Source: Leisingera sp. NJS204 (lineage in GTDB: Bacteria; Pseudomonadota; Alphaproteobacteria; Rhodobacterales; Rhodobacteraceae). Taken from it: DNA of 64,000 bases. Positions 1 through 22,472 of this stretch are shown in pieces. The translations under genes and the position numbers were made by a program. The stretch lies in the NCBI RefSeq assembly GCF_004123675.1, contig NZ_CP035417.1, forward strand, positions 1,603,501-1,667,500, written 5' to 3'. Numbering within the stretch: the first letter of the stretch is position 1; every line of letters begins with the position of its first letter. The notes under the pieces were generated by a model that worked only from the letters and a program-made list of their open reading frames with translations, searched no databases and was not told the DNA's origin.

Positions 1-8
1 TTGCCAGG

Positions 9-5359: not shown

Positions 5360-5381
5360 GGACAGACCCCGGCAAGCGCAT

Positions 5382-5954: not shown

Positions 5955-5957
5955 GGA

Positions 5958-8353: not shown

Positions 8354-8367
8354 TTCCGGCCCCTTAA

Positions 8368-8387: not shown

Positions 8388-8445
8388 CAAATTGGGGGAT
8401 CGGGACGGGACGATACACCCGCACCTATGTGCGGGGCAGTTGACG

Positions 8446-8838: not shown

Positions 8839-9088
8839 TGGTCCGGCCCTTCGGCGGCTTGCGGTTGGTTCGTTTTCCCCGGATCGGCAAAACAGTGGTC
8901 ACCACTCCATTGCGGACCTTATAGATATGGCCGCCGTGGATGATGCCTGTGGCCTCCGGAAACGCATCGCCAAGCGTCACAGCCTTGCCGATCCGGCGGC
9001 GGATTGCGTTGACGTTCACGCCCTTGACGCGCTCAAGGAACCGCAGGACAGCGTGGTCAGAAACTTGCAGGCGGCTTGGCTTTTTCAT
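8825..9088 (-). CDS. Conserved small early phage protein
   Basis: An 87-residue basic protein (MKKPSRLQVSDHAVLRFLERVKGVNVNAIRRRIG...). The 'SDHAVLRFLERV' opening resembles a short family seen in Mu-like phages next to gp16, and 'VVTTVLPIRGKR' looks like a β-hairpin. The arrangement (helix, RRR, strand, strand) faintly recalls RelE/BrnT-type small RNases, but nothing allows a functional call. It overlaps gp16 (ATGA) and the Mor-like gene (14 bp). Confidence 0.6.
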   Translation of the reverse strand: MKKPSRLQVSDHAVLRFLERVKGVNVNAIRRRIGKAVTLGDAFPEATGIIHGGHIYKVRNGVVTTVLPIRGKRTNRKPPKGRTNGKG

Positions 9089-9537
9089 CGCTGGTGGTCC
9101 TCCCAGGCGAAATCAATGTCCGCCCGTTTGCCCCAGCTTTTCAGGGCCTGAATAACCTGGTCGATCTGATCATGCTGGCGCAGCATATCCACGTCGGCGG
9201 GAACCGACTGCCAGGTGTTTTCGAACCGGGCGCGGACGAACTTGTTCAGGCCTTTGCGGCTGGGGTCGCGCAGTGCGCCGGCGGCACCCAGTTCACGCCA
9301 CAGAACATGGACTAGGCGCAGATCCGCGCGGGGCGCCAGTTTTTGCTTTTTGCCGCCGCTGCTGGCCTTGAAGCCGTCCGATTTAAGGCGCCTTAAAACG
9401 CTGTTCAGCTCGGCCTCATTCATGTCTTTCATGGAGGCTTTGCCGGTGACGGCAAGCTGCAGATCGCGGCGGCCGTCACTGTCCAGGCCCAGCTCGCGGC
9501 AGCCGACGTGGATTTTCTGCTGAAGCGCACGGGTCAT
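9085..9537 (-). CDS. Mu gp16-like protein (DUF1018)
   Basis: A 150-residue protein of the gp16/DUF1018 family, a marker of Mu-like early regions. Typical parts are 'KIHVGCRELGLDSDGRRDLQLAVTGKASMKDMNEAELNSVLRRLKSDGF' (1-55) and the C-terminal 'LRLVHVLWRELGAAGALRDPSRKGLNKFVRARF' (about 73-105). Function unknown. Coupled to both neighbours by overlapping start/stop codons. Confidence 0.85.
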   Translation of the reverse strand: MTRALQQKIHVGCRELGLDSDGRRDLQLAVTGKASMKDMNEAELNSVLRRLKSDGFKASSGGKKQKLAPRADLRLVHVLWRELGAAGALRDPSRKGLNKFVRARFENTWQSVPADVDMLRQHDQIDQVIQALKSWGKRADIDFAWEDHQR

Positions 9538-9791
9538 CAGGAACCCTCGCTCAGCGCGGCCGCAACCGGGTGGCTTGCAGCTTCGTCGGCTTTCATGCGC
9601 TGCAGTGCTTCGTCCATTTCTTCGCGCACAATGGCGTCAAAGCGTTCGGGGGAAATGCGGGAGACCTCCGCCCCCTGTTTCAGCAGCGCCACCGCGCTTC
9701 CCAGCACACGATTGGCCCAGCGTTTTTTCTGCGCATAAACGCGGAAGCTGCGCCGGGCTGCATCGCGGATTTCGTCTTCGGTCATTGCCAT
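9537..9791 (-). CDS. Small early phage protein, unknown function
   Basis: An 84-residue, largely helical charged protein (MAMTEDEIRDAARRSFRVYAQKKRWANRVLG...). No recognisable domain. It lies between DUF3164 (9-bp gap) and gp16 (start/stop overlap) and is therefore part of the early operon. Confidence 0.6.
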   Translation of the reverse strand: MAMTEDEIRDAARRSFRVYAQKKRWANRVLGSAVALLKQGAEVSRISPERFDAIVREEMDEALQRMKADEAASHPVAAALSEGS

Positions 9792-9800
9792 GTTTCGTCC

Positions 9801-10481
9801 TCACGCTTTGGCCAGATCGATGGCGATGTACTGCCAGGGGGCATCAACGCTCAAACGGCGGTAGCAGCGCGTATAAGACGCCGTGCCGACAACCCGCATC
9901 GCCATACGGATGGCTTTCATGGCCTGCTGCCAGCGCTCGTCGGCGATATCCTGGCGCAGCAGCATGAAAATCTCAGAGCGGTTGATTTGCCCCGTCTTGT
10001 CGGTGTTGAACGCGCGGGTGACGATGGAGCGGAGTTCCGGGCCAGCATCTGCGGCCCATTCATTCAGGCATTCGTCCAGCAGTTGCTTTGCAATCTGAAG
10101 TTCGGGGCCGAAGTCGATCCGGTCGGCAACTGAAACCGTGACCTTGTACAGGCTGTCATGGGACAGCAGGGTCATATTGCCTTTTTTGCCGCCAAGCTTG
10201 GCGCCGTATTCCTGCGCCAGAAGTTCTTCCAGAGCGAGAATGTCCTTATTGGTGTGGGCTTTGAAGCGCGATATTTGCTCCTGCAGCGGCAAGGCGTAGC
10301 TGACAATCTTGCGGACGGTTTCATCCATCAGCAGATCTTGAGCGTTTATGGTTTCGATTGGGTCCAGGCCGCCTTTGGCGTTGCTCATATAGGTGTTGCC
10401 GTTGGCCACAATCCGGCCGTCGGGAAGAGGAGCGGGATTGAATTGGCTCGGCCGGTTTTCTTGAGGGGACTGTTCAGTCAT
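9801..10481 (-). CDS. DUF3164 family early phage protein
   Basis: A 226-residue DUF3164 protein, a family conserved in Mu-like transposable phages and sometimes mislabelled 'sulfate transporter'. Diagnostic parts are the N-terminal 'LPDGRIVANGNTYMSNAKGGLDPIE', the central 'LALEELLAQEYGAKLGGKKGNMTLLSHDSLYKVTVSVADRI' and the C-terminal 'RWQQAMKAIRMAMRVVGTASYTRCYRR'. The function is not known; position in the early operon suggests a role in replication or its control. Confidence 0.85.
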   Translation of the reverse strand: MTEQSPQENRPSQFNPAPLPDGRIVANGNTYMSNAKGGLDPIETINAQDLLMDETVRKIVSYALPLQEQISRFKAHTNKDILALEELLAQEYGAKLGGKKGNMTLLSHDSLYKVTVSVADRIDFGPELQIAKQLLDECLNEWAADAGPELRSIVTRAFNTDKTGQINRSEIFMLLRQDIADERWQQAMKAIRMAMRVVGTASYTRCYRRLSVDAPWQYIAIDLAKA

Positions 10482-10514
10482 GAGTGATGGCTTTCAGTGA
10501 GAGGTGGAAAAGGA

Positions 10515-10598
10515 TCAGGCGCCTGTTGGGTCCAAGCGGTCGGCAATACTGCGCAGATGAATTGCAAGCCGGGTCTTGATCGGAAGCCGAACCTTCAT
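10515..10598 (-). CDS. 27-residue basic early peptide
   Basis: A very short frame beginning MKVRLPIKTRLAIHLRSIAD and ending DRLDPTGA. Its ATG overlaps the stop of the preceding HTH gene (ATGA), the same coupling used throughout this operon. It is basic and amphipathic. Real expression is inferred from the overlap only. Confidence 0.4.
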   Translation of the reverse strand: MKVRLPIKTRLAIHLRSIADRLDPTGA

Positions 10599-10969
10599 TC
10601 TTCGGGGTCCTTTCTGAACTTCGGGCAGGCGCGGCAGGCACGTATCATCCGGACCCGGAACGGGCTGGAATGTGTCCACTTTTCCGCACGGCGGCGGTGG
10701 GCCAGGCAGGCGGCGCTGGGGATCTCGGTTTTCAGAGCGGGGCAAAGAACCGGGGCACTCATGAAGACGTCGCGCACCGCAGCTTCAATGCGGACAAGCG
10801 AACCGCCATAGCGGTTGCGCATGGCCTGGCTGACAATTGTGGCGCTGAGGCCAAGTTTACTGGCAACAGAATTCTGCGAAGACTGGTCGCATTCGCGCAC
10901 CAGGACTTCGACCCAATCGGGCAGAACATCGCCCCAGCCGTCCTTAGCTAGTATCAAGCGGTCGCTCAT
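10595..10969 (-). CDS. Small HTH / cysteine-motif early phage protein
   Basis: A 124-residue protein. The first half contains a helix-turn-helix-like segment 'SVASKLGLSATIVSQAMRNRYGG' (about 35-57) of the type used by XRE/LacI proteins. The second half has cysteines and histidine ('APVLCPAL...ACLAHRRR...CRACPKF') that may bind a metal. The ATG at 10969 overlaps the upstream stop (TGATG) and is chosen over the GTG at 10972. Likely a DNA-binding early regulator, by inference. Confidence 0.6.
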   Translation of the reverse strand: MSDRLILAKDGWGDVLPDWVEVLVRECDQSSQNSVASKLGLSATIVSQAMRNRYGGSLVRIEAAVRDVFMSAPVLCPALKTEIPSAACLAHRRRAEKWTHSSPFRVRMIRACRACPKFRKDPEE

Positions 10970-11841
10970 CACAGGCGCCCTCCTGGAGCATAGACAATCT
11001 TGTCGTCGTTGCTGTCGATGATGACGGTCATGCTGCGTTTCCGGGGCGGCAGCGGGCCGGTGTTTTTGATCAGAGACAGCGGCGTGTCCGCCATCAGGTT
11101 CCGGGTGCGGGCGGCGGTGCGCAGATAGCCGGCGCGGCGCAAAATCCGGCAGTATTCCACAATGAACCGCTGGGGGATATCCGGGCGGGCCGGAGCCAGC
11201 GCGGCAAAGATATCAACCGGCCGGAACCGTTTCTGATGGCGGATTGCGGTCCAGACGGCGCCTTCTTTGGTGCTGCGCTTGTCTTTGGCGTCTTCGCGGG
11301 CCTCTTCCGGCGACTTCACCGAGAAGAACACCTTGCCCTTGCTGCGGCCCCAGACCCGCATGACGCCGGTCTGCTTCAGGCGGCTGAGAAACCGCGTCCG
11401 GATGGTTTCCGAAGCGCAGATGGTTTCAACATCCGCGTTGGTGAAGTAAGGCCGCTCGGAAATGTATTTCCAGATCTGCTGTTCTTCCAGGCTGCGCGGT
11501 TCAGCCGATGGAAGCTCAATATCCGCACCGGTCTCGCGCATCTTGTCCAGCAGCCGGTCCAGGCGGTTGCGGGACCAGGCTGTGTCCAGCTCATGCCCGT
11601 TTGCCGCCGCCATGATTTCCTTGGCTTCCTCAACGCCCCACACGGTGAAGAACTTGGTGGTGCCGTCGTTGCCGCATTCGGTGACAACGCCCTGGCGCTG
11701 CAAGGCGCGCAGGTAATTCTGCCGGGTCCAATCGCCTGCCTCGCAGTAGGTGGCAACGTCATGGTGGGTAAACCGCAGCCGGGTCTGGATGAATTCCAGG
11801 ATCTCTTTTTCGGCGGCGTTGCGGGTGGCGGTTTGGCTCAT
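10969..11841 (-). CDS. Early phage protein with repeated winged-helix-like domains
   Basis: A 290-residue protein with no assigned function. At least two similar winged-helix-like units are visible: 'EILEFIQTRLRFTHHDVATYCEAGDWTRQNYLRALQRQGVV' (about 13-55) and 'IWKYISERPYFTNADVETICASETIRTRFLSRLKQTGVM' (about 122-162), with a third weaker one around 195-245. The duplication suggests a multi-site DNA-binding protein. It starts four bases inside the MuB stop (ATGA), so it is co-translated with the transposition genes. Confidence 0.65.
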   Translation of the reverse strand: MSQTATRNAAEKEILEFIQTRLRFTHHDVATYCEAGDWTRQNYLRALQRQGVVTECGNDGTTKFFTVWGVEEAKEIMAAANGHELDTAWSRNRLDRLLDKMRETGADIELPSAEPRSLEEQQIWKYISERPYFTNADVETICASETIRTRFLSRLKQTGVMRVWGRSKGKVFFSVKSPEEAREDAKDKRSTKEGAVWTAIRHQKRFRPVDIFAALAPARPDIPQRFIVEYCRILRRAGYLRTAARTRNLMADTPLSLIKNTGPLPPRKRSMTVIIDSNDDKIVYAPGGRL

Positions 11842-12581
11842 TTCAGCCCCCTGCGCGGGCTGGGCGCATCCTTGCGGCGGAATTCAATACCGCCCCAGTC
11901 CTGCAGCGTCATGCTGGTCTGACCGAGCTTGTTTGCCTCGCCTTTGACCTGGGCAAGATCGGTCACCATGCGCCGCACGTTGCCGGTGTTGCGGTCCAGA
12001 ATGGCGTCCAGAAGATCCTCAGAAACCTCCACGCCTTCAGCATAAACGCTTGCCAGCAGGCCCGCATCTTTCAGGGTGGCCGGCTGCGCGGCGACCCAGG
12101 ACATAACCCGGCTGTCAATGAGTTCATATTTCCGGAGCTGCTGCGGGAATTCCTCCATGCCGATCATGACAACCGGGGTGTCCGAACCGTCATGCAAGTC
12201 CCGGATCAGCTCGATCACGCCGCGCCGGAAGGCATAATCCGCTTCATCGACAATCAGCGTGCGCCCGTCCAGTGCCAGTTCCTCGCAGGCCTGCAGAACC
12301 ATGTCAGGCACCACCCGCTTGGGCGCCACGCCCAGCTCGTTCAGCAGCCGTTCCAAAAAGGTCTTTTTTGTCCAATCGCCCTGCATCGAAATGTGGATGA
12401 CGTCAAAGGCAGAGGCGCAGAAGATGGCGCCGAAGGTCTTGCCGTAGCCGGGGTAGCCGTAAAACACCCCCAAGCCCGGCATTCCAAAGGTCCGGTTCTG
12501 CAGCTCGGTTACCAGCGCTGCCATCGTCGCCACGTTGGTCAACGGCTGTACGCTATTGCCGATTTCCAAGGTCTGTGTCAT
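11838..12581 (-). CDS. MuB-like transposition target-selection ATPase
   Basis: A 247-residue AAA+ ATPase. Walker A GYPGYGKT at 42-49, Walker B TLIVDEAD at 108-115 and sensor-like 'VVMIGMEE' at about 134-141. MuB family proteins coat target DNA, activate the transposase and give target immunity. Shorter than Mu B (312 aa), mostly for lack of a long N-terminal extension. Lies 66 bp after the transposase gene, in the canonical A-B order. Confidence 0.88.
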   Translation of the reverse strand: MTQTLEIGNSVQPLTNVATMAALVTELQNRTFGMPGLGVFYGYPGYGKTFGAIFCASAFDVIHISMQGDWTKKTFLERLLNELGVAPKRVVPDMVLQACEELALDGRTLIVDEADYAFRRGVIELIRDLHDGSDTPVVMIGMEEFPQQLRKYELIDSRVMSWVAAQPATLKDAGLLASVYAEGVEVSEDLLDAILDRNTGNVRRMVTDLAQVKGEANKLGQTSMTLQDWGGIEFRRKDAPSPRRGLK

Positions 12582-12647
12582 GCTCGCTCCTAGTCAATCA
12601 ATGCCGTCGCCATGGGGTCCAGCCAGGCGGCGGTTTTCTTTTGTGAT

Positions 12648-14786
12648 CTACCCGGCGTTATTGCCGCCGAATGCCTGTTTCAACGCTGCCAGCGCCTCGT
12701 ACTCCGAATGGGTTTGGTAGCCCTTCAGCCAGCCAGCCTCGCGCTCCCCGACCGGGTCGCCGTTTTGCTGCCGGCGCTCGATTTCCTGCGCTTGGGCAAA
12801 CCGGTCGTCTGCTGTTGCGGCCACTTTGAAGGCCTCCTGTTTGGGGGAGGGTTCGGATTTCTTCCGCCCATCGCCGATCTGCAGAATGAGGGCGTCCTGG
12901 GCGGCCTCGGCGCTGGGGTCCGAATGGTCCCGGAAGTTTGAAACCTTGGGCGTTTTGGGAAACACTGCCTTCACCACTTTGGCTTCCATCAGTGCGTTTG
13001 TTTCCTTGCTGATCCCGTTCAGATCGGCCCCGAGCTGTTTCGGAGTATGCGGCGCGTACAGCTCGGCCAGTTCCTTCTCCTTTTTGACGATATCGCGCTT
13101 CCGCTTGGCGGTGACGCGCGCATCCTCATGACTGAAGAAGCCGATTTTCTGCTGGCATTCAGCAAAGCCCAGGTGCGCGCCGTCGTGCGTGTAAATATGC
13201 ACCCCGCTGTGCAGGTTTTCGGGGTCAAAGCGGATCACAACCTTGCGGCCTGCATCCTGGCTCATCCAGTCGCAGTGATAGACATTGCCCAGAAACTTCA
13301 GGCTGCCATTGTTTTTGTGAAGCTTACCTGTGTCCTGGCCCATCAGCCAAAGATTGCGCTGTTCTTCGGTCGCCTTCAGGACATTGGCCGTGGCGTAACT
13401 TTCCGCGAAGGTCTCATCAAAGCTCCGGCCGGCTGCGGTGTCCGTGCGGCGGCCCGTCCGGGCATTGTGTTCTTCAATGCGCTCTTCCAGAACCTCAATA
13501 AACTCGTGCAGAGGAACGGCGTGGGAGCCGTAATTCTCGGGTTTGGCATCCGGACGGTTCCCCACATATGCGCCCGCGAAACGCACATCTTTAGCAATGT
13601 CATTTGCATGGCCGCCAAAGGCCCGCTCGATAGGTTTTGACTGGCCGCTTGCCGGTTGTGCCCATGTCAGGTTGATGCCCAGCAGCGTTAATACGCCGTG
13701 CGCATCATCTTCGCGCACCTTGAACCGGAACCGGGTAGGGGACCCGCCCGTCATCCACTTGTTTGCAAACTCGTGGCCGTTGTCGAACAGGCAACGCTTT
13801 GGGATGCCCCAACTGTCTACCATTTCTCCAAAGGCAGCCATCACCATGATTTTGTTCGGATCACAATCTACCCGCCAGGACAGGAACTTTCCTGAGTAGA
13901 GGTCCTGAAACGCAATCATTTGCGGGCGGCGGACCTTGCCATCCGGCCAGCGGACAAAAACATCAAACTTGTGGCAATCCGCGTTCACCGCTTCCAGTGC
14001 ATGTAGAGCGGATTTATCTCTGATCTGCGCAGGAAAGCAGCGTATCAGCCCGCGCGGGCCTTCGCGTTTGTACACTTGGGTGGTGCGCGGCACTTCGGCA
14101 TCCATCCAGCGTTTTGCGGTTTTCAGGATTGGAAACTCCCAGCCCCGATGGCTCGCAACACGAACCGCGTCACGGTAGCTCTGTGCAAATGTCGGCCCCT
14201 CCATCCGCAGGAAGGCACTTTTCAGCCAGTCCATGAACATTCTGAACTTGCCGCGGTCCTCAGTTTTGGTGCGCTTTTTGGGTGGCTGGGGCGCCAGATA
14301 GGCCAGGTGATCCGCCGCCGGAATTCCTTCAATCAGCCCGAGCCAATTGTAGATAGTGCGCGGGCTGATCTTGTATTCATCAGCAATGAACCCCACGGCT
14401 TGAACATGAACCGTGCCGCTGCTGTGCAGCAGCTCCACTTTCGCAAGCACATCCAGTCTACGTGCAGCCTCGTCCTTGTTTTTTTGGGACAGCTTTTCAT
14501 AAGCCACCCAGGCGGTCGCCCGGTCTGGGCGCTCCGGTTGCGCTGGTGTTTCTGCCGCCTGCATCACCAGTTTTTGACGGGCGGCAGCGGGCAGGACAGA
14601 CCAGTGATAGGACCACCCGCCGCCGCGCCCAGGCTTGCGCTTGATGGCTCCGGGCACCTTGCGCCAGCCGCTGCGCTCAGCAAAGGCGTTTACGTTCTGC
14701 ACCGTGCCGGGCAACCCCGGCAGTTTTGCCTCGGCAATCTCTGCCGCCGTCCACCATTCTTTTTCGGGAGTGATGCCGCTGCCCAT
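12648..14786 (-). CDS. MuA-like DDE transposase
   Basis: A 712-residue transposase for phage integration and replicative transposition. The N-terminal Mu-type winged helix is at 10-70 (EWWTAAEIAEAKLPGLPGTVQNVNAFAERSGW). The catalytic triad fits D270 (VNAD), D335 (CLFDNGHEFANKW) and E387 (SGQSKPIERAFGG), close to MuA's D269/D336/E392. The Mu_transposase C-terminal region follows, then a charged tail for partner contacts. Length and all catalytic residues are intact. Its ATG overlaps the ParB-like stop (TAATG). Confidence 0.93.
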   Translation of the reverse strand: MGSGITPEKEWWTAAEIAEAKLPGLPGTVQNVNAFAERSGWRKVPGAIKRKPGRGGGWSYHWSVLPAAARQKLVMQAAETPAQPERPDRATAWVAYEKLSQKNKDEAARRLDVLAKVELLHSSGTVHVQAVGFIADEYKISPRTIYNWLGLIEGIPAADHLAYLAPQPPKKRTKTEDRGKFRMFMDWLKSAFLRMEGPTFAQSYRDAVRVASHRGWEFPILKTAKRWMDAEVPRTTQVYKREGPRGLIRCFPAQIRDKSALHALEAVNADCHKFDVFVRWPDGKVRRPQMIAFQDLYSGKFLSWRVDCDPNKIMVMAAFGEMVDSWGIPKRCLFDNGHEFANKWMTGGSPTRFRFKVREDDAHGVLTLLGINLTWAQPASGQSKPIERAFGGHANDIAKDVRFAGAYVGNRPDAKPENYGSHAVPLHEFIEVLEERIEEHNARTGRRTDTAAGRSFDETFAESYATANVLKATEEQRNLWLMGQDTGKLHKNNGSLKFLGNVYHCDWMSQDAGRKVVIRFDPENLHSGVHIYTHDGAHLGFAECQQKIGFFSHEDARVTAKRKRDIVKKEKELAELYAPHTPKQLGADLNGISKETNALMEAKVVKAVFPKTPKVSNFRDHSDPSAEAAQDALILQIGDGRKKSEPSPKQEAFKVAATADDRFAQAQEIERRQQNGDPVGEREAGWLKGYQTHSEYEALAALKQAFGGNNAG

Positions 14787-15805
14787 TATCCGGCCTCCCG
14801 GTTGTGGGCTTGGAACATCACAACTTCAGAAGCGGGCGTTTCGCTGTCTCCGGCATCCTGCAGATGTTCCAGCAGCTCATCGCGGAATTCCGCCGCAAAC
14901 TGCGCCCGTGCAGCTTTGGAACCGCGCCGCCAGGCGTCGGCAATCTTGGCAACCTGCTGGTCTGTGGTGGATTGCACCGCCGCTCCGGGTACTTTCTTGC
15001 GGTCTAGAACCTCTTTGGCGGATTTCGCCTCCCCCATGCCCAGGGCCGCGCAGATCGCGCTTCGATCCGCCTGTTCGCCGCACTTGGCTATGTGTTCCAG
15101 GTCTTTGAATTGCACCTTGTTCGGTGCGTTCCGCAGTTGGCTGATTTCCTCTTTGGACAGCTTTTCGCCGACACTGATCAGGCGCTGCATTGTCTTCTGA
15201 GATTTTCCAAATGTTTCAGCAGCGTTGGCGCTGAATGATGCAAGCGACATTTTGTCGTTTGCATCCCAGCGGCCGTGCGCGCCAGCTTTGCCTTGCGCTG
15301 TCTCGGGGTTTTCCCGCTCATACAGCTCTTTGTGCGCAGCCAGAAAAACGGCCATATCCAGCGGTGTCAGCGGGGCGCCGGCCACATTGGCATCAACTTC
15401 AATCCGGATGGCCTGGTCATTGGTGCATTCGCTGACCTTGACCGGCACTTCTTCCAGCCCGGCTTCCTTGGCGGCGGTCAGGCGGTGCAAGCCGTCCATC
15501 AGCCGGTAGCCGTCTTTGACCCTGCGCACCAGCAGCGGCTGCAGGATGCTGCCGACCTCTTGGATGGACGACACGATGCTGGCAACCGCCGTGGGTGAGG
15601 CGGTGCGCAAGCGTTCTTCCACTTGGATATCAGCAACCGGAAGGATTTGAATTTTCTGCCAATTTGGAGGGGTCATTGGGGATGCTCCACTTTGATTGAA
15701 TTCAGCGGTTTCAAGGGAAGGCCTGCCGTTCTTTGCGGCATGGCCAGCGGTGTCAGCGCGCAGGCGGGGCTTGAAACTGCCCGTCATAATCTGCGCACCA
15801 GGCAT
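14786..15805 (-). CDS. ParB/Spo0J-like N-terminal domain protein of the early region
   Basis: A 339-residue protein with a ParB-type nuclease/CTPase fold near the N-terminus: 'ILPVADIQVEERLR' (about 53-67), 'IVSSIQEVGSILQPLLVRRVKDGYRLMDGLHRLTAAKEAG' (about 77-117) containing the family's G..R..A pattern, and a helical DNA-binding region ('SANAAETFGKSQKTMQRLI'). The start at 15805 is coupled to the upstream stop (TGATG). An ATG at 15676 with a GGAG upstream would give a 296-aa protein without the unconserved leader. Such genes precede MuA in several alphaproteobacterial Mu-like phages; role unknown. Confidence 0.75.
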   Translation of the reverse strand: MPGAQIMTGSFKPRLRADTAGHAAKNGRPSLETAEFNQSGASPMTPPNWQKIQILPVADIQVEERLRTASPTAVASIVSSIQEVGSILQPLLVRRVKDGYRLMDGLHRLTAAKEAGLEEVPVKVSECTNDQAIRIEVDANVAGAPLTPLDMAVFLAAHKELYERENPETAQGKAGAHGRWDANDKMSLASFSANAAETFGKSQKTMQRLISVGEKLSKEEISQLRNAPNKVQFKDLEHIAKCGEQADRSAICAALGMGEAKSAKEVLDRKKVPGAAVQSTTDQQVAKIADAWRRGSKAARAQFAAEFRDELLEHLQDAGDSETPASEVVMFQAHNREAG

Positions 15806-16095
15806 CAGTGCTTGCGGGCCAGGAAGTCGTTGAAATCGTCCAGGGCGCCGTCACTCGCCAGGCTGGAGACAAGGTCAGCGACCCGGCGCTGCGCTTCGGC
15901 CATAGCCTCAACTGCTGCGTCCACATCAGCAGCGCATTCGCCAATCGTATTCCAGCCGTGTGCTCGGGCCATCTTGTGACGGCTTGCAGCGATAACCAGG
16001 CGGTCGCGCTGTTTTGCATACTCGGCCGCTGCGCCGTGCAGCTCAGTGGCTCGGTGAAGAACAGAATTCTTGGTGAAAAAGTCGTTTCCGGTCAT
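15805..16095 (-). CDS. Small helical early phage protein
   Basis: A 96-residue protein starting MTGNDFFTKNSVLHRATELHG. The ATG at 16095 overlaps the stop of the preceding gene (ATGA) and has a GGAG upstream; a longer frame from 16188 would bury most of that gene. Mostly helical, with a run 'AAVEAMAEAQRRVADLVSSLA' suggesting a coiled coil. No known domain. Confidence 0.6.
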   Translation of the reverse strand: MTGNDFFTKNSVLHRATELHGAAAEYAKQRDRLVIAASRHKMARAHGWNTIGECAADVDAAVEAMAEAQRRVADLVSSLASDGALDDFNDFLARKH

Positions 16096-16376
16096 TTCAA
16101 AAAGGCTCCAAACAAAAGCAGGGAGGGCAGGGCGAAGGCGCAAACGCCCCCAATCAGGTCGTCGAAAAGGTCCGAGGGGTTTGGCCACACAGCGCGGAAC
16201 CCTTGGCCCCAGCCCGCTAGAAATGAAGCAAGGCTGGGACCCGTTCCGGTGAGTGGTACGCGGGAATAAAAAGGCCCCGGCAGCGCACCCCCATGGCTGC
16301 CGGGAAGTTGAACCAGGCCGCTGCTAGCAGGCGTGCGGGACTGGCTGGACGGGTGTTCTTTTTGAATGCTGGTCAC
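16092..16376 (-). CDS. Small membrane protein of the early operon
   Basis: A 94-residue protein with a GTG start overlapping the stop of the upstream HTH gene (GTGA). The first two thirds are polar and Pro/Gly-rich; a single hydrophobic segment near the C-terminus (about 71-92, DLIGGVCAFALPSLLLFGAFL) should be membrane-inserted. Coupled start and stop support its reality; function unknown. Confidence 0.5.
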   Translation of the reverse strand: MTSIQKEHPSSQSRTPASSGLVQLPGSHGGALPGPFYSRVPLTGTGPSLASFLAGWGQGFRAVWPNPSDLFDDLIGGVCAFALPSLLLFGAFLK

Positions 16377-16744
16377 TGGCCTGCCTCCCTCCTGCCGGAG
16401 AGAGGGGGCAGATCATCAGCAGATAAACTGCGACGATCTCGCATGGGGCCGTGCATTTCCTCGTCGTAACTACCTGATTCTTTAAGGTGTGGAACGACGT
16501 CGTCGCCTGCATTCGCTACCCGATACCCCAAGGTGTACAGAACCGTCCTGACAGTCAGGGTATTCGGGTTGGGAACCTGTCCGTCCTTCAGTCTGCGAAT
16601 TTGCTTCCCAGAGAGGCCGCAAGACCTGGCAAAGCTTTCGCAAGAAACCGTGGTGAAGCCCCGGTTCATCTGGTCAAGCTCTTTGCGGAGAAGCCCTGCG
16701 AACTGCTGTCCGCTCAAGTGGTGAATTATTGTTTCTGGTGCCAT
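16373..16744 (-). CDS. HTH protein, first gene of the lytic operon (Ner-like position)
   Basis: A 123-residue protein with a helix-turn-helix 'SFARSCGLSGKQIRRLKDGQVPNPNTLTVRTVLYTLGY' (about 37-74), XRE-like. The ATG is preceded by GGAGG five bases upstream. It is divergent from the repressor gene and opens the leftward early operon, the place of Ner (Cro-like) in Mu. A role in turning down early and repressor transcription is inferred from position and fold. Confidence 0.68.
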   Translation of the reverse strand: MAPETIIHHLSGQQFAGLLRKELDQMNRGFTTVSCESFARSCGLSGKQIRRLKDGQVPNPNTLTVRTVLYTLGYRVANAGDDVVPHLKESGSYDEEMHGPMRDRRSLSADDLPPLSGRREAGQ

Positions 16745-16946
16745 CGGGTCCTCCGTTGGGTTAAACGGTAGCCTTAAAAGACCAGTGTAACAACCCTAAA
16801 AGACCAGCAACATGCCGTAAAGGGTCGAGAGATTATCGCAAAAGGTGGCGGTTAACCCCTTTTTGCTGGATGGGTGAACTTAAAAGTCCGCCTGCTGGAC
16901 TTTTATTTCCGTTTGCTGGACAAATAATTCCGTGTAAGGTTCGCGC
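16745..16946. promoter_or_regulatory. Divergent prophage immunity control region with repeated operator-like motifs
   Basis: A 202-bp AT-richer intergenic region between the divergent HTH genes. Direct repeats TTAAAAGACCAG and CTAAAAGACCAG occur at about 16774-16805. The related half-sites TTGCTGGA (twice) and GCTGGACTTTT lie at about 16863-16920. AAAAGTCC and GGACTTTT form a perfect 8-bp inverted repeat at about 16883-16905. This pattern fits repressor and Ner operators over two opposed promoters. Confidence 0.6.
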
Positions 16947-17291
16947 ATGAGCAAACCAGGCAAGAATAATTCAGACTCAAAGAGTGAGGGGGTCGAGGCG
17001 TGGAGGAAGCGCCTGCGTCAAGCCCTGGATGACCGTAACCTTGACTATGATAAGGTGTCGTTGGAGAGCGATAGCGGAGCTGAGTATGTAAGCCGGGTGC
17101 TGTCAGGCCGCTTTAACCCGACGGTCGGTAAGCTTATGAAAATATGCGAAGTTGCAAACATTGATATGGCTTGGTTGTTTTCTGATGATCCATCATCCGA
17201 GAGCCAGTCCGTGGTTGAGAAGGCTGCGGACCTCTCAGAAAATGATGCCGAGCTAGTCAGCCGACTCATCAAGAGTGCGCGCCCGCGCTGA
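16947..17291 (+). CDS. Candidate prophage repressor (XRE-type HTH)
   Basis: A 114-residue protein with an HTH in 'WRKRLRQALDDRNLDYDKVSLESDSGAEYVSRVLSGRFNPTVGKLMKICEVANIDMAWLF' (about 19-78), the classic λ-type fold of small phage repressors. It has no peptidase tail, so LexA-style cleavage is not expected. It is divergent from the lytic operon, across a region with repeated motifs. It is followed by an intrinsic terminator and then luxR on the same strand. Identity as the lysogeny repressor is an inference. Confidence 0.68.
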   Translation: MSKPGKNNSDSKSEGVEAWRKRLRQALDDRNLDYDKVSLESDSGAEYVSRVLSGRFNPTVGKLMKICEVANIDMAWLFSDDPSSESQSVVEKAADLSENDAELVSRLIKSARPR

Positions 17292-17320
17292 TTTAATTCT
17301 ATCCATTGCTTGTTCGAACA

Positions 17321-17349
17321 GCCGGGTTCCTTCGCCCGGCTTTTTTTTG
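17321..17349 (+). terminator. Intrinsic terminator after the repressor gene
   Basis: GCCGGG / CCCGGC hairpin followed directly by eight T residues, 30 bp past the repressor stop. It should separate repressor transcription from luxR. Confidence 0.85.
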
Positions 17350-17430
17350 TTTGCTTGCTCCACTTCATGAACAATCCTTTGCAGCGTTTCGGCGGTGATC
17401 CCGTCTTCGTTCATCTGGTTGCCTATCGAG

Positions 17431-17456
17431 GTGAAGTATCACTTGTGATACTTCAC
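17431..17456. promoter_or_regulatory. Perfect 26-bp palindrome upstream of luxR (candidate lux box)
   Basis: GTGAAGTATCAC, TT, GTGATACTTCAC: a perfect 12-bp inverted repeat ending 50 bp before the luxR start. The core TATCACTTGTGATA recurs with one change in front of luxI. Position and symmetry fit binding of a LuxR-type dimer or another HTH dimer controlling luxR. Confidence 0.7.
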
Positions 17457-17506
17457 GCATTGCGGTATTCATGTGTCACATTACATACTAAGCGTGTGCA
17501 TCCAAT

Positions 17507-18124
17507 ATGATTAGTGATATAGCGGGCGTCCATTTGCGGACGCTGGATAACATTTCTGAGTGCGGTTTTTCGCTGGGAGTTGGCTTCGACGGCGCGAATA
17601 TTGCCTTTCTAAAGTCGACCTACTCGAGAGAATGGCAGGAGCGGTACGTCGCTCAAAGATACCTCGACCTAGACCCGACAATAAAATACGGGGTCGCTGG
17701 AACCGGTTCTATTACTTGGGAAGAACTGAGGGTGCGCTATCCTGAAAGCGATAGGTTCTTTGATGACGCCGCCAGGCACGGCCTAGTACAGGGAAACACC
17801 CTTTCAATTCATGTTGACGGGCAAGTGTCGATAGTGAGCAGCAGCGGACCCAAGTGGACCGATGCTGAGCGGCGGCTCGCGAAAGCCGCCTTGTATACCC
17901 TCTACTCACTGCATCACGAACAAACCCGGCACTATTCCATATCACGGCAGGCGCAGGATGTTCTTCGCCTCATGTGTGCGGGGTTTAAAGATCAGGAAAT
18001 TGCCGAAAGGCTCGGGGTAAAGCTGGAAACTGTTCGCCAGCGCCGCAGAGGGGCTATGCAGGCAGTTGAGGCTACCTCCACCGCGCAGTTGATATCACTA
18101 GTGATAAAATTCGGGCTTATCTAA
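17507..18124 (+). CDS. LuxR-family acyl-homoserine-lactone receptor/regulator
   Basis: A 205-residue quorum-sensing transcription factor. The autoinducer-binding domain (about 10-135) keeps the classic ligand-pocket residues: W43 and Y47 in 'EWQERYVAQRY', D56 and P57 in 'DLDP', W71 in 'ITWEEL'. The C-terminal GerE-type HTH is 'QAQDVLRLMCAGFKDQEIAERLGVKLETVRQRRRGAM' (about 147-184). It is somewhat shorter than TraR/LuxR (about 235-250 aa) at the N-terminus. It lies 61 bp upstream of luxI on the same strand and next to the phage immunity region. No strong Shine-Dalgarno is seen at the ATG. Confidence 0.88.
   Translation: MISDIAGVHLRTLDNISECGFSLGVGFDGANIAFLKSTYSREWQERYVAQRYLDLDPTIKYGVAGTGSITWEELRVRYPESDRFFDDAARHGLVQGNTLSIHVDGQVSIVSSSGPKWTDAERRLAKAALYTLYSLHHEQTRHYSISRQAQDVLRLMCAGFKDQEIAERLGVKLETVRQRRRGAMQAVEATSTAQLISLVIKFGLI
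18093..18106. promoter_or_regulatory. Second palindrome, inside the 3' end of luxR and upstream of luxI
   Basis: TATCACTAGTGATA, a perfect 14-bp palindrome differing by one central base from the core of the palindrome before luxR. It lies 80 bp upstream of the luxI ATG, within the last luxR codons, and so is a candidate control site for luxI. Confidence 0.6.
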
Positions 18125-18185
18125 AGACCAAGGATTCCATTCAAAATGGGCTCTTTGAACATGGCGCTGCAACTAGGAGAGCGCC

Positions 18186-18851
18186 ATGCAATTACACGTC
18201 TTTTCATTCGAACACCGCCGCGCCTTTGAGGCGGTTTATTCAGGGTTTCTGGCCCTGCGCAAACTTAAGCTGGTGGACGAACTTGGCTGGGGTTTGGTCC
18301 ATGATGGCCACTTTGAGCAGGATCAATATGACCGAACAGGTGCAGTCTATTCCATCGTTACGCAGGGCGGTCGCGTGATCGCCGGCGCCCGTGCGGCGTC
18401 ATGCGCAGGCAATGACGGGTATTGGACCTACATGCTGCAGGACGCCAGAGACGGCAAAATCCCAGGTATCCCTGGCGGACTGCTCAATGACTACCCGGAA
18501 ACGAACCTGACATGGGAATGCACCCGCTTTGTTATGGATGAGACCCGAGCAGATCAGGCGCACCCATCTATCGAGACAAAACTCGTCGTCGCCGGGTTGT
18601 GCAGGGCTGCCTTCGGGCTTGGAGCATCCGAGCTTATGTCGCTTTCGCCGCAAGGGCTGGGGCCTCTGCTACGGCGGTTCGGGTACCAGATCCGCAGGGA
18701 GGCGGCCCGCTACAATTGCGAGGACGACGGACGGCAGTACCGCGCTTTTCGGATGGAGTGTGATCCAGGAGTTAATCAATATCTAGCTGCACGCTATCTT
18801 TCGCCGGGTTCTGCTACTGCGTTGCGCGAGGAACTGAAAGGGGCGGCTTAA
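18186..18851 (+). CDS. LuxI-family acyl-homoserine-lactone synthase
   Basis: A 221-residue autoinducer synthase making an AHL from S-adenosylmethionine and an acyl-ACP. The invariant family residues are present: R25 and W35 (RKLKLVDELGW), D46 and D49 (EQDQYD), R69 (GARAA), E111 and R114 (WECTRF). The acyl-chain pocket half is intact, so activity is expected; chain length cannot be predicted. GGAG lies 7 nt before the ATG. It pairs with the upstream luxR. About 300 bp of gene-free DNA follow before a PARIS defence system on the other strand. Confidence 0.9.
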   Translation: MQLHVFSFEHRRAFEAVYSGFLALRKLKLVDELGWGLVHDGHFEQDQYDRTGAVYSIVTQGGRVIAGARAASCAGNDGYWTYMLQDARDGKIPGIPGGLLNDYPETNLTWECTRFVMDETRADQAHPSIETKLVVAGLCRAAFGLGASELMSLSPQGLGPLLRRFGYQIRREAARYNCEDDGRQYRAFRMECDPGVNQYLAARYLSPGSATALREELKGAA

Positions 18852-18885
18852 CCCAAATTCAGCAAGCCAAAAGAGCGGCTGCAAA

Positions 18886-18953
18886 ACTTACATAACGGCC
18901 CTTATGGCGCCGCCGCGAGGCGGTGCCATAGTGAACATAAGCGCGCTTATAGC
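18886..18953. repeat. Two dif-like dyads and a GC hairpin in the luxI-ariB gap
   Basis: This lies in the 342-bp gene-free stretch 18852-19193. ACATAA-CGGCCC-TTATGG (18891-18908) and ACATAA-GCGCGC-TTATAG (18936-18953) share the Xer/dif layout of CATAA and TTATG arms around a 6-bp centre. Between them is a 12-bp stem (TATGGCGCCGCC / GGCGGTGCCATA, one wobble) with a GCGA loop at 18905-18930. No gene is seen in the rest of the gap. Confidence 0.5.
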
Positions 18954-19165
18954 GCGTTAGTTGGGATCAGAGTTGTTCGCGCAGGTCTGAGCCCATAGCG
19001 GACCTTGATAGTTGGTTTAGTGCCGAAGCAGCAAGTAGGCTTTCAGCACCGAAAGCGTCCGCTTCCAATCAAAGGGGAGCCACTAAGCCAGGAACAGGTC
19101 GCCACCCCAACGCAGCGCAAACTCTTCATACCTAGCTAGTGGAATTAGGCAAAAGCGACAAAGTC

Positions 19166-19182
19166 AAGTTACATAAGGGGAG
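19166..19182. repeat. dif-like half-site downstream of the PARIS genes
   Basis: AAGTTACATAAGGGGAG: the arm ACATAA followed by the same GGGG centre as the dif-like site at 22085 on the far side of the PARIS genes. The second arm (CACTCAGG) is not conserved. The identical ten bases ACATAAGGGG form a direct repeat bracketing the defence module. Confidence 0.45.
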
Positions 19183-19193
19183 CACTCAGGCTA

Positions 19194-20102
19194 CTAGCCC
19201 AATCTAGATTCCAAGAACTCCGTCAATGAAGGCGGGTAGGGAACGCGCCCTGCGAGAAGTTCAACAACGCGAGCGCCTGCAAGACTCTCTGGCTCTCTAA
19301 TTTTTTTCTTTTTCGCAGTTTTTCGCCTGTCGTTTTCTTCTTTAATTGCAAGTTGGGCTGATCTCGAGAAAATCCAGGCATGGTACTTCCCGCGGCAAAT
19401 CGTATTGAAGTCTAGGGGGAGTATGGCGCGATACCATCTGACTTGCAGATTTAGAGGAGGCACACCTTTTCCCGAATCCACCTTTCTCTTGAAGTTTAGA
19501 AAACACTGTCCGCAAAATAGTAGTCTCCCATCGCTGGTCACTTTAAGAAGAGACCCCATGGAGTTAGTGTTGTTTAAGTTTGGGCTGCAAGAAGCATCCT
19601 TGGCAGCCAGTATCCAAGCCGCAAGAGCATACATTCTAGTTCTAATTTCACACTGTATTTCCTGCATGCGGTCTTTTAGGCGATTTGCATCTTTTGTTGG
19701 AACGGCGAGGATGTCTGTCAAAAGAACATTGGCAGCCTCATCAGAGGACATCATATTCTCAATCGAATAACCGTCTGTTATGTAAAGAGCGTCGCTTTTC
19801 GTTGCTTGCCGACTTAGTAAGTCATCGTAGTCTCTATCTACAAAAAATAATGTCAATACATTGTAAGATTTTTCAACAGAATCTCGGGCGTCCACGACGT
19901 TCCATTTCCCCCCACAATTGTATGATAGGATTTTTCTGGAACCCGCCAATCTCCTTATTTCAGGCAGATAGTAAATGAAGTCCTCTTCCCCTTCCAGGAA
20001 AACATGAATTTCATTTTCATCTTGGTAGGACGCAATGAATTCATGTACCGCAGCATTTTCCGAAAAAGCCTCAGCGGCAAGATAATCGGCATAGTCCTCC
20101 AA
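19194..20102 (-). CDS. ariB: AriB-like PARIS effector (DUF4435, Toprim-type nuclease)
   Basis: A 302-residue DUF4435 protein. Toprim-type acidic positions are visible: 'FLEGEEDFIYY' (glutamates 37-40, D41) and 'FFVDRDYDD' (D89, D91, D93). The family signature 'DGYSIENMM' follows at 110-118. In characterised PARIS systems AriB is held by the AriA ATPase and, once released by a phage trigger such as T7 Ocr, acts as a toxic nuclease cleaving tRNA. The likely start is a TTG at 20102 with AGGA upstream, 17 nt after the ariA stop. Base composition is clearly AT-richer than the flanks, indicating transfer. Confidence 0.85.
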   Translation of the reverse strand: MEDYADYLAAEAFSENAAVHEFIASYQDENEIHVFLEGEEDFIYYLPEIRRLAGSRKILSYNCGGKWNVVDARDSVEKSYNVLTLFFVDRDYDDLLSRQATKSDALYITDGYSIENMMSSDEAANVLLTDILAVPTKDANRLKDRMQEIQCEIRTRMYALAAWILAAKDASCSPNLNNTNSMGSLLKVTSDGRLLFCGQCFLNFKRKVDSGKGVPPLNLQVRWYRAILPLDFNTICRGKYHAWIFSRSAQLAIKEENDRRKTAKKKKIREPESLAGARVVELLAGRVPYPPSLTEFLESRLG

Positions 20103-20119
20103 TGTTCCTGCCCTCCCGA

Positions 20120-21523
20120 TCAGTACATGTTCTTGCGAAGATCTAACGCATGATGCCGGAGGCTATTTTGATATACAAACGGGCTATGCGTTACAGAGAG
20201 CAGGAAGCTGCATCTATTGCTTTTCAAAATGTCCTCTAGGAAACGTTTTTGCCATGGGACTGATAGCGATAACTCAGGCTCATCAATGATTACGGTCTGG
20301 ACTTCTTGCTTGTCCAAGAAAAGATGAGCAAAAACAGAAATAACTTGTTTTTCGCCTGATGAGAGTAAGCTCAGGTCGATAGGGCCAGACACTTGATCGA
20401 AGATTGCGGTGCTGAAAGTCGTCTCGTCGTATACAATCTGCTTCCTAGGAAGGAGGTAGTCGTTGCAAGTCTCGACGAAAGATAGGATATCCCCTTCTTT
20501 TTGGGATATCTCTTCATTAACGACCACCAATCTCGAGAAGTAGTGTGCCAAGAAGCGATCATGAACACTAATCGAGTCCAAAGTGTTTGACCTGATAGAT
20601 GTAACTTTTTGCCTAAGTAGATCTTTGTCATTATCGGACAAAATATCCTCACTCACACGCCCTAGAATTTTTGAAAGAGCCGAGTCGGAAAGGTCTCGAA
20701 TTTGTTCAACATTGAAGTCGTCGGCCTGCCCTCTAATAACGTCCTTCAGATACAGGCCTGATAGCTCATTGAATTTTGAAAGAGAAAAATCTCTTAACTC
20801 ATTTGCTAACCCGCTCAACCGTTTTCGAACATCGTTCATGCCAAAGCTTACAAGGTCTATGTAGTAACGAGAGGACCTCGTGAGCTCTAATTCGCCGTCG
20901 GATGAAAGGTCTTCTCGAAACTTCCTTCGGAGCTTAGGGGAGATTTCGCGGAGATCTTTTTCTATTCTCCTATAAGTGGGTAGAAATAAAGTTCTCCCTG
21001 GCATGTATTTTTCCAATTGGGCTTCCACATTTCTCTTCGGCAGGGAGAAGAAATCATCATCATCGTGCTCCATTCTCCTACGCAGAGAATACATAAAGTG
21101 CCTGAATTGGTCAGATGATAAATCGTCGGAGAGATAATCTCTCCAGTTTGGCATAGCCCTCCCCGATGACACAAGATCTCCTAGAAACTCTTCCAATCGA
21201 TCCTCTGACTTCAGCTTGCTTAAAATATCGAATGTTTTTGATGACGGGCTGAGATCGTCAAAAACGCTCGCAATTCTTGAAAGTCCAGTGATTTCATCTC
21301 GACCGATTTCAATTGCGTCGTCGCCAAACCAGAGTGCTATCCGATCAAACCTATAGTCTACCAACCTGCTCCACTGTCTCGAAACAAAATAGTAGAAAAT
21401 ATTAGCGACGCTACTTTTTCCTATCCCGTTGGGGCCAACTAATATGCCACAGTTTTCAAGGAAGTTGATATCGACATCGACCGCATCAAATAGACTAAAG
21501 ATCTGAAACCTTGAGGGATGCAT
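20120..21523 (-). CDS. ariA: AriA-like PARIS sensor ATPase (AAA/ABC-type)
   Basis: A 467-residue ABC/SMC-like ATPase. Walker A GPNGIGKS at 30-37, signature LSSGEKQ at 387-393, Walker B VIIDEPE at 411-417 and the switch histidine in 'SVTHSP' (446). The middle (about 90-350) is mostly helical. The ATG at 21523 has GGAG nine bases upstream; a longer frame to 21661 lacks support. The partner directly downstream is a DUF4435 protein, the combination that defines PARIS. OLD or Gabija ATPases are less likely, because no fused Toprim domain or UvrD-like helicase is present. Confidence 0.85.
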   Translation of the reverse strand: MHPSRFQIFSLFDAVDVDINFLENCGILVGPNGIGKSSVANIFYYFVSRQWSRLVDYRFDRIALWFGDDAIEIGRDEITGLSRIASVFDDLSPSSKTFDILSKLKSEDRLEEFLGDLVSSGRAMPNWRDYLSDDLSSDQFRHFMYSLRRRMEHDDDDFFSLPKRNVEAQLEKYMPGRTLFLPTYRRIEKDLREISPKLRRKFREDLSSDGELELTRSSRYYIDLVSFGMNDVRKRLSGLANELRDFSLSKFNELSGLYLKDVIRGQADDFNVEQIRDLSDSALSKILGRVSEDILSDNDKDLLRQKVTSIRSNTLDSISVHDRFLAHYFSRLVVVNEEISQKEGDILSFVETCNDYLLPRKQIVYDETTFSTAIFDQVSGPIDLSLLSSGEKQVISVFAHLFLDKQEVQTVIIDEPELSLSVPWQKRFLEDILKSNRCSFLLSVTHSPFVYQNSLRHHALDLRKNMY

Positions 21524-21926
21524 TGTCCCAAACTCCTGCTGTCCAGTTGCTTTGACTTTGCACGTTAGAAGCCGAAGCGCAACACAGCTATAAGATGGGT
21601 GGGCGCTGAACTTGTTCAGCCAAGGGTGTTGTAGAAGCTGCTGCAGCGAGCCTGTAACCAAGGGCTCTTTGTCGAGAGTGAATTTCCTTTACTCACTATG
21701 GTAGGCATGCACTGTAGTGAGTTTGCTGAAACGTTGAGACATTGCGTTTGCGGGAGTGTTCCAACTTCCCAATCCTGATGTCGCAACAGATGTTGGAGGG
21801 GGCTGTTGCGAACCATTAAGTTTTGAGTGGTCGCTCAGTTTGCGTGCGCAGCGAAAGTCTGCAAAGTCCGCCGTGCACAACTTCCTTTCCTAGCTCACCT
21901 TCCCAAGGCAAGGCTGGAGGGTGTTT

Positions 21927-21961
21927 CAGCCCGAACCAAAATCACGTTCAAGTTCGGGCTG
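21927..21961. terminator. Strong hairpin in the gap upstream of ariA
   Basis: A perfect 10-bp inverted repeat CAGCCCGAAC / GTTCGGGCTG with a 15-nt loop and no T-run. It lies in the gene-free stretch 21524-22084, which also has GTTCAAGTTCGG repeated at about 21949 and 22050 and otherwise shows nothing recognisable. Terminator or processing hairpin; uncertain. Confidence 0.35.
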
Positions 21962-22084
21962 AGCGTCGCGCGAGGCAAGCTTTCTCTACTGCTTTGATTT
22001 TAGGCGTTTAACCCCATTCTTGAACGCTTGTTCGAACTTCCGCCTCCTTCGTTCAAGTTCGGCGGCTCAAATTGGCGGTCTGAA

Positions 22085-22110
22085 ATTTAACATAAGGGGC
22101 ATTATCGCCC
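22085..22110. repeat. dif-like Xer recombination site upstream of PARIS
   Basis: ATTTAACATAA, GGGGCA, TTATCGCCC. The first arm is identical to the reverse complement of the XerD-binding arm of bacterial dif (TTATGTTAAAT). It is followed by a 6-bp centre and a TTATCG arm like the XerC side. It shares ACATAAGGGG with the half-site at 19166. Confidence 0.5.
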
Positions 22111-22164
22111 TTGTGAGGGCCTGTTTTCCCTTATTCTACAAGGTCTAGGGCAGGGGAGAGAGTT

Positions 22165-22472
22165 TGCAACGGGAAGTGTCCCAAAATCTGCTGAGAGCGC
22201 TGTAAGGGCCATTTTTCCGGGTATTGAAGGACAAACACCCCAGGCCACTTTCCAGCTTTAGATCTTCCTGAATGCCCTTTTTTATATGGCTCTATCCGGG
22301 TTCTTCCGGCTTTGTCCGGCCTCTTCCGGTTACTGCAATATCAAGTGTCTCCTAACAGCAACTCGTTTTCGCGAATTCCCTGATTTTTAGGCCTGAAACC
22401 GGGGTTTAGCCAGTCCGGAAATCCGCCGGTCCCGCGATTTGACGCCGGGATTTTGGGACACTTCCCATTGCA
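22165..22472. repeat. Miniature inverted-repeat element with TG...CA ends
   Basis: About 308 bp bounded by 24-bp inverted repeats with a single mismatch (22165-22188 and 22449-22472; core GGGAAGTGTCCCAAAATC). The element begins TG and ends CA. A third copy of the core (GGGACACTTCCCATTGCA) follows at 22477-22494. No coding capacity. It may be a MITE or IS remnant, or a pair of transposase-binding ends of the Mu-like prophage, whose right end should lie near here. Confidence 0.55.

Follow-up and report, generated by a model that had tools for sequence, protein, structure and literature searches.

A xre-luxR-luxI module inside a Mu-like prophage of Leisingera sp. NJS204 as a probable signal-driven lysis-lysogeny switch

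The stretch of DNA analysed here (hereafter "the window") comprises 64,000 nucleotides of the Leisingera sp. NJS204 genome (GCF_004123675.1, contig NZ_CP035417.1, positions 1,603,501 to 1,667,500) and includes part of a Mu-like prophage, P1, which carries genes for an acyl-homoserine lactone (acyl-HSL) receptor (luxR) and an acyl-HSL synthase (luxI) next to an XRE-type regulator gene (xre) and a divergent gene, hth. We read this module as the lysis-lysogeny switch of an apparently complete phage, driven by the phage's own acyl-HSL, and give this reading a probability of roughly 0.8; the circuit very probably gauges how many neighbours already harbour the virus. Going by its main text, a July 2026 bioRxiv preprint (PMC13345283) has already made this kind known, describing how hth / xre-luxR-luxI switches lysogeny in response to HSL in Roseobacter prophages, among them a Mu-like one, and the window holds a further member. 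A preliminary description, made from the sequence of the window, had proposed that the element reads and broadcasts its own density signal to bias lysogeny; the location of the module inside the phage and the close analogy with Phage A of Phaeobacter inhibens T5 (PMC13345283) lend support to that proposal.

The genes xre, luxR and luxI run in the same direction, with hth divergent just upstream (Table 1). Open reading frames (ORFs) and Pfam and PHROG matches confirm the placement of these three genes on one strand, divergent from MuA and MuB, as first described. The LuxR protein contains both an autoinducer-binding and a GerE domain, has PDB matches to RhlR, TraR and LasR, and aligns its residues W43, Y47, D56 and W71 with the pocket positions of TraR, in agreement with the ligand pocket described initially. 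Seven LuxI residues singled out in the same description (R25, W35, D46, D49, R69, E111, and R114) are invariant in a seven-sequence alignment (A7), and the 12 best PDB matches of the LuxI model are all acyl-HSL synthases (TofI, MesI, BjaI, RpaI, EsaI, LasI; best E 1.3e-10). A profile search of the strain's own genome scored luxI at 21 bits. Three further luxI-like genes lie elsewhere in the host genome (G000:C5:33133, C1:839778, and C1:2178334; G000 denotes the genome of the window, other G codes the genomes of relatives, and L codes individual loci).

Table 1. Features of prophage P1 and its switch region, in window coordinates
Feature	Position	Strand or location	Description and evidence
P1, part inside the window	1..22357	-	end repeats, termini; head, tail, terminase, portal and lysis genes by PHROGs
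MuB-like transposition ATPase	11838..12581	-	PHROG 296, 9.1e-50
MuA transposase	12648..14786	-	PHROG 310, 1.7e-146
ParB-like, early gene run	14786..15805	-	PHROG 3264, 8.2e-58
hth	16373..16744	-	first gene of the leftward run holding ParB, MuA and MuB; its place corresponds to that of hth in PMC13345283
Candidate operator TAAAAGTCC-N7-GGACTTTTA	16881..16905	between hth and xre	repeats, seen in the window
xre	16947..17291	+	XRE-type regulator, 114 aa; Pfam HTH_3 6.4e-6
Fifth gene, 53 codons	17253..17414	-	39-bp convergent overlap with xre; 92 bp between its start and that of luxR
Palindrome 12+2+12 GTGAAGTATCACTTGTGATACTTCAC	17430..17455	between small gene and luxR	perfect over 26 nt
luxR	17507..18124	+	acyl-HSL receptor/regulator, 205 aa; Pfam Autoind_bind 1.9e-18, GerE 2.3e-6
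luxI	18186..18851	+	acyl-HSL synthase, 221 aa; Pfam, conserved residues, predicted fold
ariB-like cargo	19194..20102	-	DUF4435 (Pfam 4.1e-19); PADLOC AriB 1.6e-18
ariA-like cargo	20120..21661	-	AAA ATPase; PADLOC AriA 8.9e-24
End repeat L2	22165..22182	-	169 bp from L1
End repeat L1 and left terminus TGCAATATCAAGTGTCTCCTAACA	22334..22357	-	terminus CTAACA ends at 22357

The xre product is 49-96% identical to those of seven other modules and weakly matches several PHROG regulator and repressor families, whereas no cI- or Ner-like regulator is reported for the phages in the main text of the preprint (PMC13345283). Pfam and PHROG searches with the window's hth protein gave no match; homologues of hth occupy the same position in G200, G304, G597, G409, and G400. 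Comparing the window with G400, the ratio of nonsynonymous to synonymous polymorphism (pN/pS) is 0.21 for luxI, 0.12 for luxR, and 0.07 for xre, and by these ratios all three genes are under purifying selection.

P1 is bounded by an 18-24 bp end repeat (GGGACACTTCCCATTGCA and variants) that occurs at both prophage ends in opposite orientation, and its left terminus lies 3.5 kb past luxI. Given the chosen right terminus at C1:1585909, the whole prophage measures 39,949 bp (∼39.9 kb; G000:C1:1585909-1625857), with its genomic right end 17.6 kb before the start of the window. In the prophages of the window, G409, G400, G597, and G304, the left end falls 2.3-5.5 kb beyond luxI, with differing cargo in between; the two left-end repeats are 169 bp apart in all of these except G597 (167 bp), L2 of G597 and G304 being recovered only with five mismatches to the L1 pattern. 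No left-end repeat pair was found in G200 at ≤ 4 mismatches within the 20 kb scanned.

Mu-type ends with a 5-bp host duplication had been anticipated. The left terminus CTAACA and the end repeats are in place, and GCGGG, which precedes the chosen right terminus of P1, also follows the left terminus of the G409 prophage but is absent at that of the window. A short deletion between CAGC repeats appears to have removed the window copy. Since TGTAGCGGG repeats make up the flank, the 5-bp duplication fits a Mu-type insertion but does not prove one. The host flank of G409 matches that of the window over 2.3 kb at 95.6%, and the two prophages thus occupy the same host place; no host sequence in the flanks of G400, G597, and G304 matched the right flank of the window (only 0.7 kb was compared for G304).

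Family matches cover almost the full length of MuA, MuB, and the ParB-like protein, in keeping with the intact MuA/MuB operon described at the outset. Nine further P1 proteins were scanned, and their families include terminase subunits, portal, minor head, tape-measure, tail fibre, and amidase (a tenth protein in that scan belongs to a neighbouring remnant, P2, described below). The MuA, MuB, head, tail, and lysis genes follow the order seen in the Mu-like Rhodovulum phage vB_RhkS_P1, and P1 is apparently a complete Mu-like prophage.

Because the end repeats lie beyond luxI and phage genes are carried on P1, the luxR-luxI pair is phage DNA. The preliminary description, which had not located the prophage edge, allowed that the pair might be host DNA just outside it, and luxI-like genes are indeed widespread, with matches in 150 of 295 family genomes at E 1e-5. 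We reject this explanation and give it practically no weight, since the left end was located beyond luxI in five prophages at no fewer than two host sites, the same gene order stands beside MuA in four genera, and in phylogenetic trees the phage copies form a single clade that is separate from ordinary host luxR-luxI pairs. No phage end was found between xre and luxR, where a boundary would have pointed to host DNA.

The arrangement of hth, xre, luxR, and luxI beside ParB, MuA, and MuB recurs in the same order in six prophages (window, G409, G400, G597, G304, and G200), whose hosts represent four genera; three of the five non-window prophages come from outside the window's genus. Spacing is conserved as well, with a luxR-luxI gap of 61 bp in all 13 window-type modules and an xre-luxR gap of 207-218 bp. 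With a profile made from the LuxR proteins of the window and G200, phage-type LuxR stands sharply apart from host LuxR: among 394 family genomes, four matches score 236-417 bits and the next 82 bits. There were also matches in 11 of 21 genus genomes at E 1e-20, and 14 matches at 1e-21 among 390 genomes of the order, six of them at ≥ 173 bits. The combination of synthase and receptor beside a phage repressor had been called rare; luxI in 53 of 93 predicted Roseobacter prophages, in a set assembled from luxI-bearing ones onward (PMC13345283), argues otherwise for this group.

Scans of viral contigs with LuxI and with the LuxR and LuxI pairs returned a single IMG/VR contig, which shares 16.7 kb with the window at full identity; the XRE scan added one more contig. 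Genome contigs scanned with LuxR gave no match, and with XRE six loci. The phages collection had no close LuxI or LuxR, only three weak records for each, and the top-listed LuxI match among plasmids had 33.6% identity. Two records of Acinetobacter phage MD-2021a (CAKLQH020000009.1 and CAKLQF020000013.1) contain lasI- and sdiA-annotated genes 24-25% identical to the window's LuxI and LuxR.

The module also occurs away from Mu genes. In six genus genomes (G394, G398, G397, G411, G395, and G404), xre-luxR-luxI is present with no Mu gene match in the 20-kb stretch; in a seventh, G408, the module lies on a 3.1-kb contig. In G412 luxI is intact and luxR cut, with Mu-like tail genes (identified by eye) alongside. 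At the one prophage-free site examined, that of the G394 copy, three of the 21 genus genomes carry the module next to the marker gene, and blastn over the 1.0-1.5 kb fetched found no module at this site in the other 18, including the window's. The second condition named at the outset against a phage origin, the same luxR-luxI locus conserved at this host site in strains lacking the prophage, does not hold either; four genera have Mu-like prophages that carry the module.

A tree of 60 LuxI proteins groups the phage-type copies in one clade of 15 (support 99/96), in which the earliest branches are the Mu-phage copies of G200 and G304, followed by G340 and then the Mu-phage copy of G597, with the Mu-free Leisingera copies nested inside. 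The 60 kb fetched for G340, which branches before G597, gave no Mu gene match. A LuxR tree of 25 rows recovers the same clade (99/97), G488 included, and the xre tree is poorly resolved. Of 40 family luxI loci, 39 have no Mu gene match in the stretch examined (mostly 20 kb; 6.0 and 3.4 kb in two cases); these 39 were taken as host luxR-luxI and used as the outgroup. If the root lies among the host pairs, movement from phage to chromosome is favoured, with the reservation that the trees are unrooted and cover few lineages. Relative to the main text of PMC13345283, the nesting of Mu-free copies within the phage clade would be an addition.

These chromosomal copies bear on the possibility that luxR-luxI is cargo that benefits the host as an extra quorum-sensing circuit and exerts no control over the phage. 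Prophage-free xre-luxR-luxI copies persist intact in Leisingera, where they are under purifying selection, and the intact luxI beside a cut luxR and tail genes in G412 fits this idea too. The module nevertheless sits at the switch position, with hth and the transposition genes diverging from it, and the genes past it vary from phage to phage; xre has been kept together with luxR-luxI; and relatives use the module as a switch (PMC13345283). We regard a pure cargo role as quite improbable.

The preferred reading, a switch driven by the phage's own signal, draws on analogues in the preprint. Phage A belongs to the Mu family, and its module was shown to control lysogeny; the modules of Phage A and Phage B have the same four genes, order, and orientation as the window, again in Roseobacter-group prophages, Mu-like in the case of Phage A (PMC13345283). 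HSL production, promoter logic, and induction upon blocked signalling were demonstrated for these analogues; in Phage A, XRE is required to activate the lysogeny promoter, and blocking the signal leads to expression of structural genes and lysis (PMC13345283). The earlier label "HTH repressor" for xre is too simple, because the Phage A XRE is needed for activation.

By analogy, in a P1 lysogen LuxR with the LuxI product would act together with XRE to drive the rightward promoter (xre, luxR, luxI) and to hold down the leftward promoter (hth, then ParB, MuA, and MuB). The signal would accumulate with the number of lysogens and impose dormancy where most neighbours carry the phage; where it falls or is antagonised, transposition and lysis would ensue. 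Since hth is the first gene of the strand carrying MuA and MuB, a falling signal would become transposition. While the content and order of the genes, their location within the phage ends, their conservation, and the selection acting on them are direct observations, the LuxI product and promoters of this phage would presumably behave as in the analogues. A 53-residue protein encoded on the strand opposite to xre may tune or oppose XRE or LuxR, as suggested by the palindrome-bearing intergenic region that its gene has in common with luxR and by its overlap with the 3' end of xre.

The regulatory DNA around the switch contains several candidate sites. Half-sites related to the candidate operator TAAAAGTCC-N7-GGACTTTTA lie at 16773-16785, 16795-16807, 16862-16870, and 16912-16920. 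The palindrome GTGAAGTATCACTTGTGATACTTCAC is perfect in the window and G409, and its core, TATYAYTTGTKATA, is readable in 13 of 13 window-type modules.

Several observations weigh against a phage switch driven by its own signal. The luxI match to Autoind_synth (E 4.9e-5, 23.4 bits) falls just below the Pfam cut-off of 24, and the LuxI model is of low confidence (mean predicted local distance difference test [pLDDT] score of 55). To judge from its Mu-free Leisingera copies, the module can also live without a phage. A promoter scan found 2 sites against 1.5 in shuffled sequences, nearly the same number, and the Phage A sequence was not identified among the genomes searched. Finally, a stem resembling a terminator lies between xre and luxR (17320-17341), so that luxR-luxI may also have a promoter of its own, unlike the plain three-gene operon of the preprint; the form of this stem, as read from the sequences, is kept in G409 and partly in G400, and not in the other modules.

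The small opposite-strand gene between xre and luxR (162 nt counting the stop) was first spotted through a similar ORF at the same place in G200. Fifteen xre matches reduced to 13 in window-type modules once L133 and L080, with weak xre matches, were left out, and all 13 contain the small gene, encoding 53 amino acids in 12 of them and 58 in G200, where the overlap with xre is 42 rather than 39 bp. Outside the overlap, its frame has zero stops in seven pairs and a pooled pN/pS of 0.40, compared with 7-26 stops and pN/pS of 0.51-1.40 in the other five frames, and on this evidence the gene is under purifying selection in window-type modules. AlphaFold predicts a two-helix hairpin (pLDDT 80.7). 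The window protein matched no PHROG family, proteins of other modules gave stray single-member matches (best E 0.025), and BFVD contained no fold match at E ≤ 0.001.

A profile of the small protein found no match at E 0.01 in L133 (G404:C57), L129 (G488), L127, or L104. L133 and L129 are diverged xre-luxR-luxI arrangements with weak xre matches (3e-11 and 1e-8), and the small gene, as far as these sequences tell, is not general to every such arrangement. These two loci hold further diverged luxR-luxI pairs, each with its weak xre match upstream. A second, diverged module type, whose LuxI and LuxR are distant from those of the window, carries an ORF of 52-59 amino acids between xre and luxR in six of six modules compared (a seventh, L245, fits less well and was left out). 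Here the evidence for a gene is weaker, with pN/pS of 0.42-0.72; one plus-strand frame is likewise stop-free, at 0.70. We do not claim homology between the small genes of the two types.

Diverged xre-luxR-luxI modules occupy the same place in the related Mu-like phages L245, L247, L251, L254, and L156, whose MuA proteins are 39-64% identical to that of the window, which suggests that the module has been swapped between phages. G409 holds both types, the window type at C1:2430273 (L118) and the diverged type at C1:2087310 (L280, whose LuxI is 68% identical to that of L156), and this two-module genome recalls the P. inhibens polylysogen.

A small counter-oriented gene also figures in Aeromonas phage Apop, in which xre-luxR is accompanied by a 156-nt small ORF that is activated by LuxR-HSL and XRE and causes lysis, its product disabling the phage repressor (PMC10432266). 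If P1 worked likewise, its signal would trigger lysis at high density, with XRE and LuxR-signal switching on the small gene against the repressor. The window resembles the XRE-LuxR-smORF (small ORF) modules of Apop and ARM81ld in combining XRE, LuxR, and a counter-oriented gene of ∼50 codons, here one of 162 nt next to luxR with a palindrome in between. It differs in the position of that gene, which is upstream of xre in those phages and inside the module, between xre and luxR, in P1. Apop, moreover, responds to the C4-HSL of its Aeromonas hosts, the signal leads to lysis, a separate cI is kept, and luxI goes unmentioned in the sections consulted (PMC10432266), whereas the luxI-bearing, Mu-like Phage A signals for lysogeny (PMC13345283). 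Lysis at high density is accordingly unlikely for P1, if somewhat less so than a pure cargo role.

Returning to a signal that promotes lysogeny, the analogy with the Apop small gene (PMC10432266) leads us to propose the small protein as an antagonist of XRE or LuxR. In its full form, the proposal is that phage LuxI/LuxR switches of the window type have an unrecognised fifth component, a ∼53-residue opposite-strand protein between xre and luxR whose gene shares the palindrome-bearing region with luxR and which would act as a fast antagonist of XRE or LuxR, flipping the switch as the signal falls and uniting these lysogeny-promoting modules with the Aeromonas XRE-LuxR-smORF lysis modules; the switch would lie beside an exchangeable cargo slot with known anti-phage gene types in two of six phages. 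We lowered our estimate for it because the small gene went unrecognised in the diverged L133 and L129, and consider it tentative and rather doubtful.

The cargo slot between luxI and the left end is, by its gene content, variable, while the adjoining switch is conserved. In the window it contains an AriA and AriB pair, both matched by PADLOC models, which places it with the PARIS systems: a DUF4435 gene adjoins an AAA ATPase gene, as in PARIS, but here the pair, predicted from its genes, is carried as cargo by a Mu-like phage and adjoins its quorum-sensing switch. G200, whose left end was not located, has a SNase-like gene and a DSR1-like protein (1.2e-77) past luxI. By eye, the G400 slot encodes an 802-residue protein with a SIR2-like look, that of G409 three other ORFs of >200 amino acids, that of G597 a gene with a methyltransferase look, and that of G304 a 486-residue ORF.

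Compared with the main text of PMC13345283, the window adds the fifth small gene, the palindromic core, and the PARIS cargo. That text (figures and supplementary tables aside) makes no mention of a small antisense ORF, a palindrome or lux box, cargo or defence genes, or Leisingera, and for this reason we regard the fifth gene, palindromic core, and defence cargo as additions, not certain firsts. The divergent hth, the small gene at 17253-17414 (-), the PARIS genes, and the prophage end at 22357 likewise go beyond the preliminary description. Among the open PMC papers returned by literature searches, judged by titles and abstract openings, no other dealt with phage-made acyl-HSL switches.

The left end of P1 directly abuts P2 (22356-27948), the remnant of a second, related Mu-like prophage whose right end shares 93-94% identity with that of P1; the remnant breaks off close to transposase-like ORFs, judged by eye, at 28.6-30.3 kb. 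Right-end-type repeats directly follow the left end in four of the five prophages with a located left end (window 22334-22500, L118, L128, and L103; G400 is the exception), as though the right end of a related resident prophage were a preferred insertion site for these phages. At its own right end, P2 carries a DNA methyltransferase gene and a small zinc-ribbon-like ORF (22606-23563), at the place of mom and com in phage Mu.

Phage-made density signals are familiar from arbitrium, the components of which are AimP and AimR; it uses a peptide and the AimR receptor instead of an acyl-HSL and LuxR. In SPbeta-like Bacillus phages, this diffusible signal reports lysogen density (as cited in PMC13345283). 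That phages can switch lysogeny through an acyl-HSL of their own making has become known only very recently, and to this the window adds a natural relative in another host lineage, with the phage ends placed around the switch. The module spans Mu-like phages of four genera and host chromosomes with no Mu genes nearby. If the small gene is functional and present in the phages studied experimentally, its place between xre and luxR, with an overlap into the end of xre, means that four-gene constructs may have included it as a hidden part. The slot beside the switch, in turn, raises the question of whether density sensing is linked to phage-phage exclusion.

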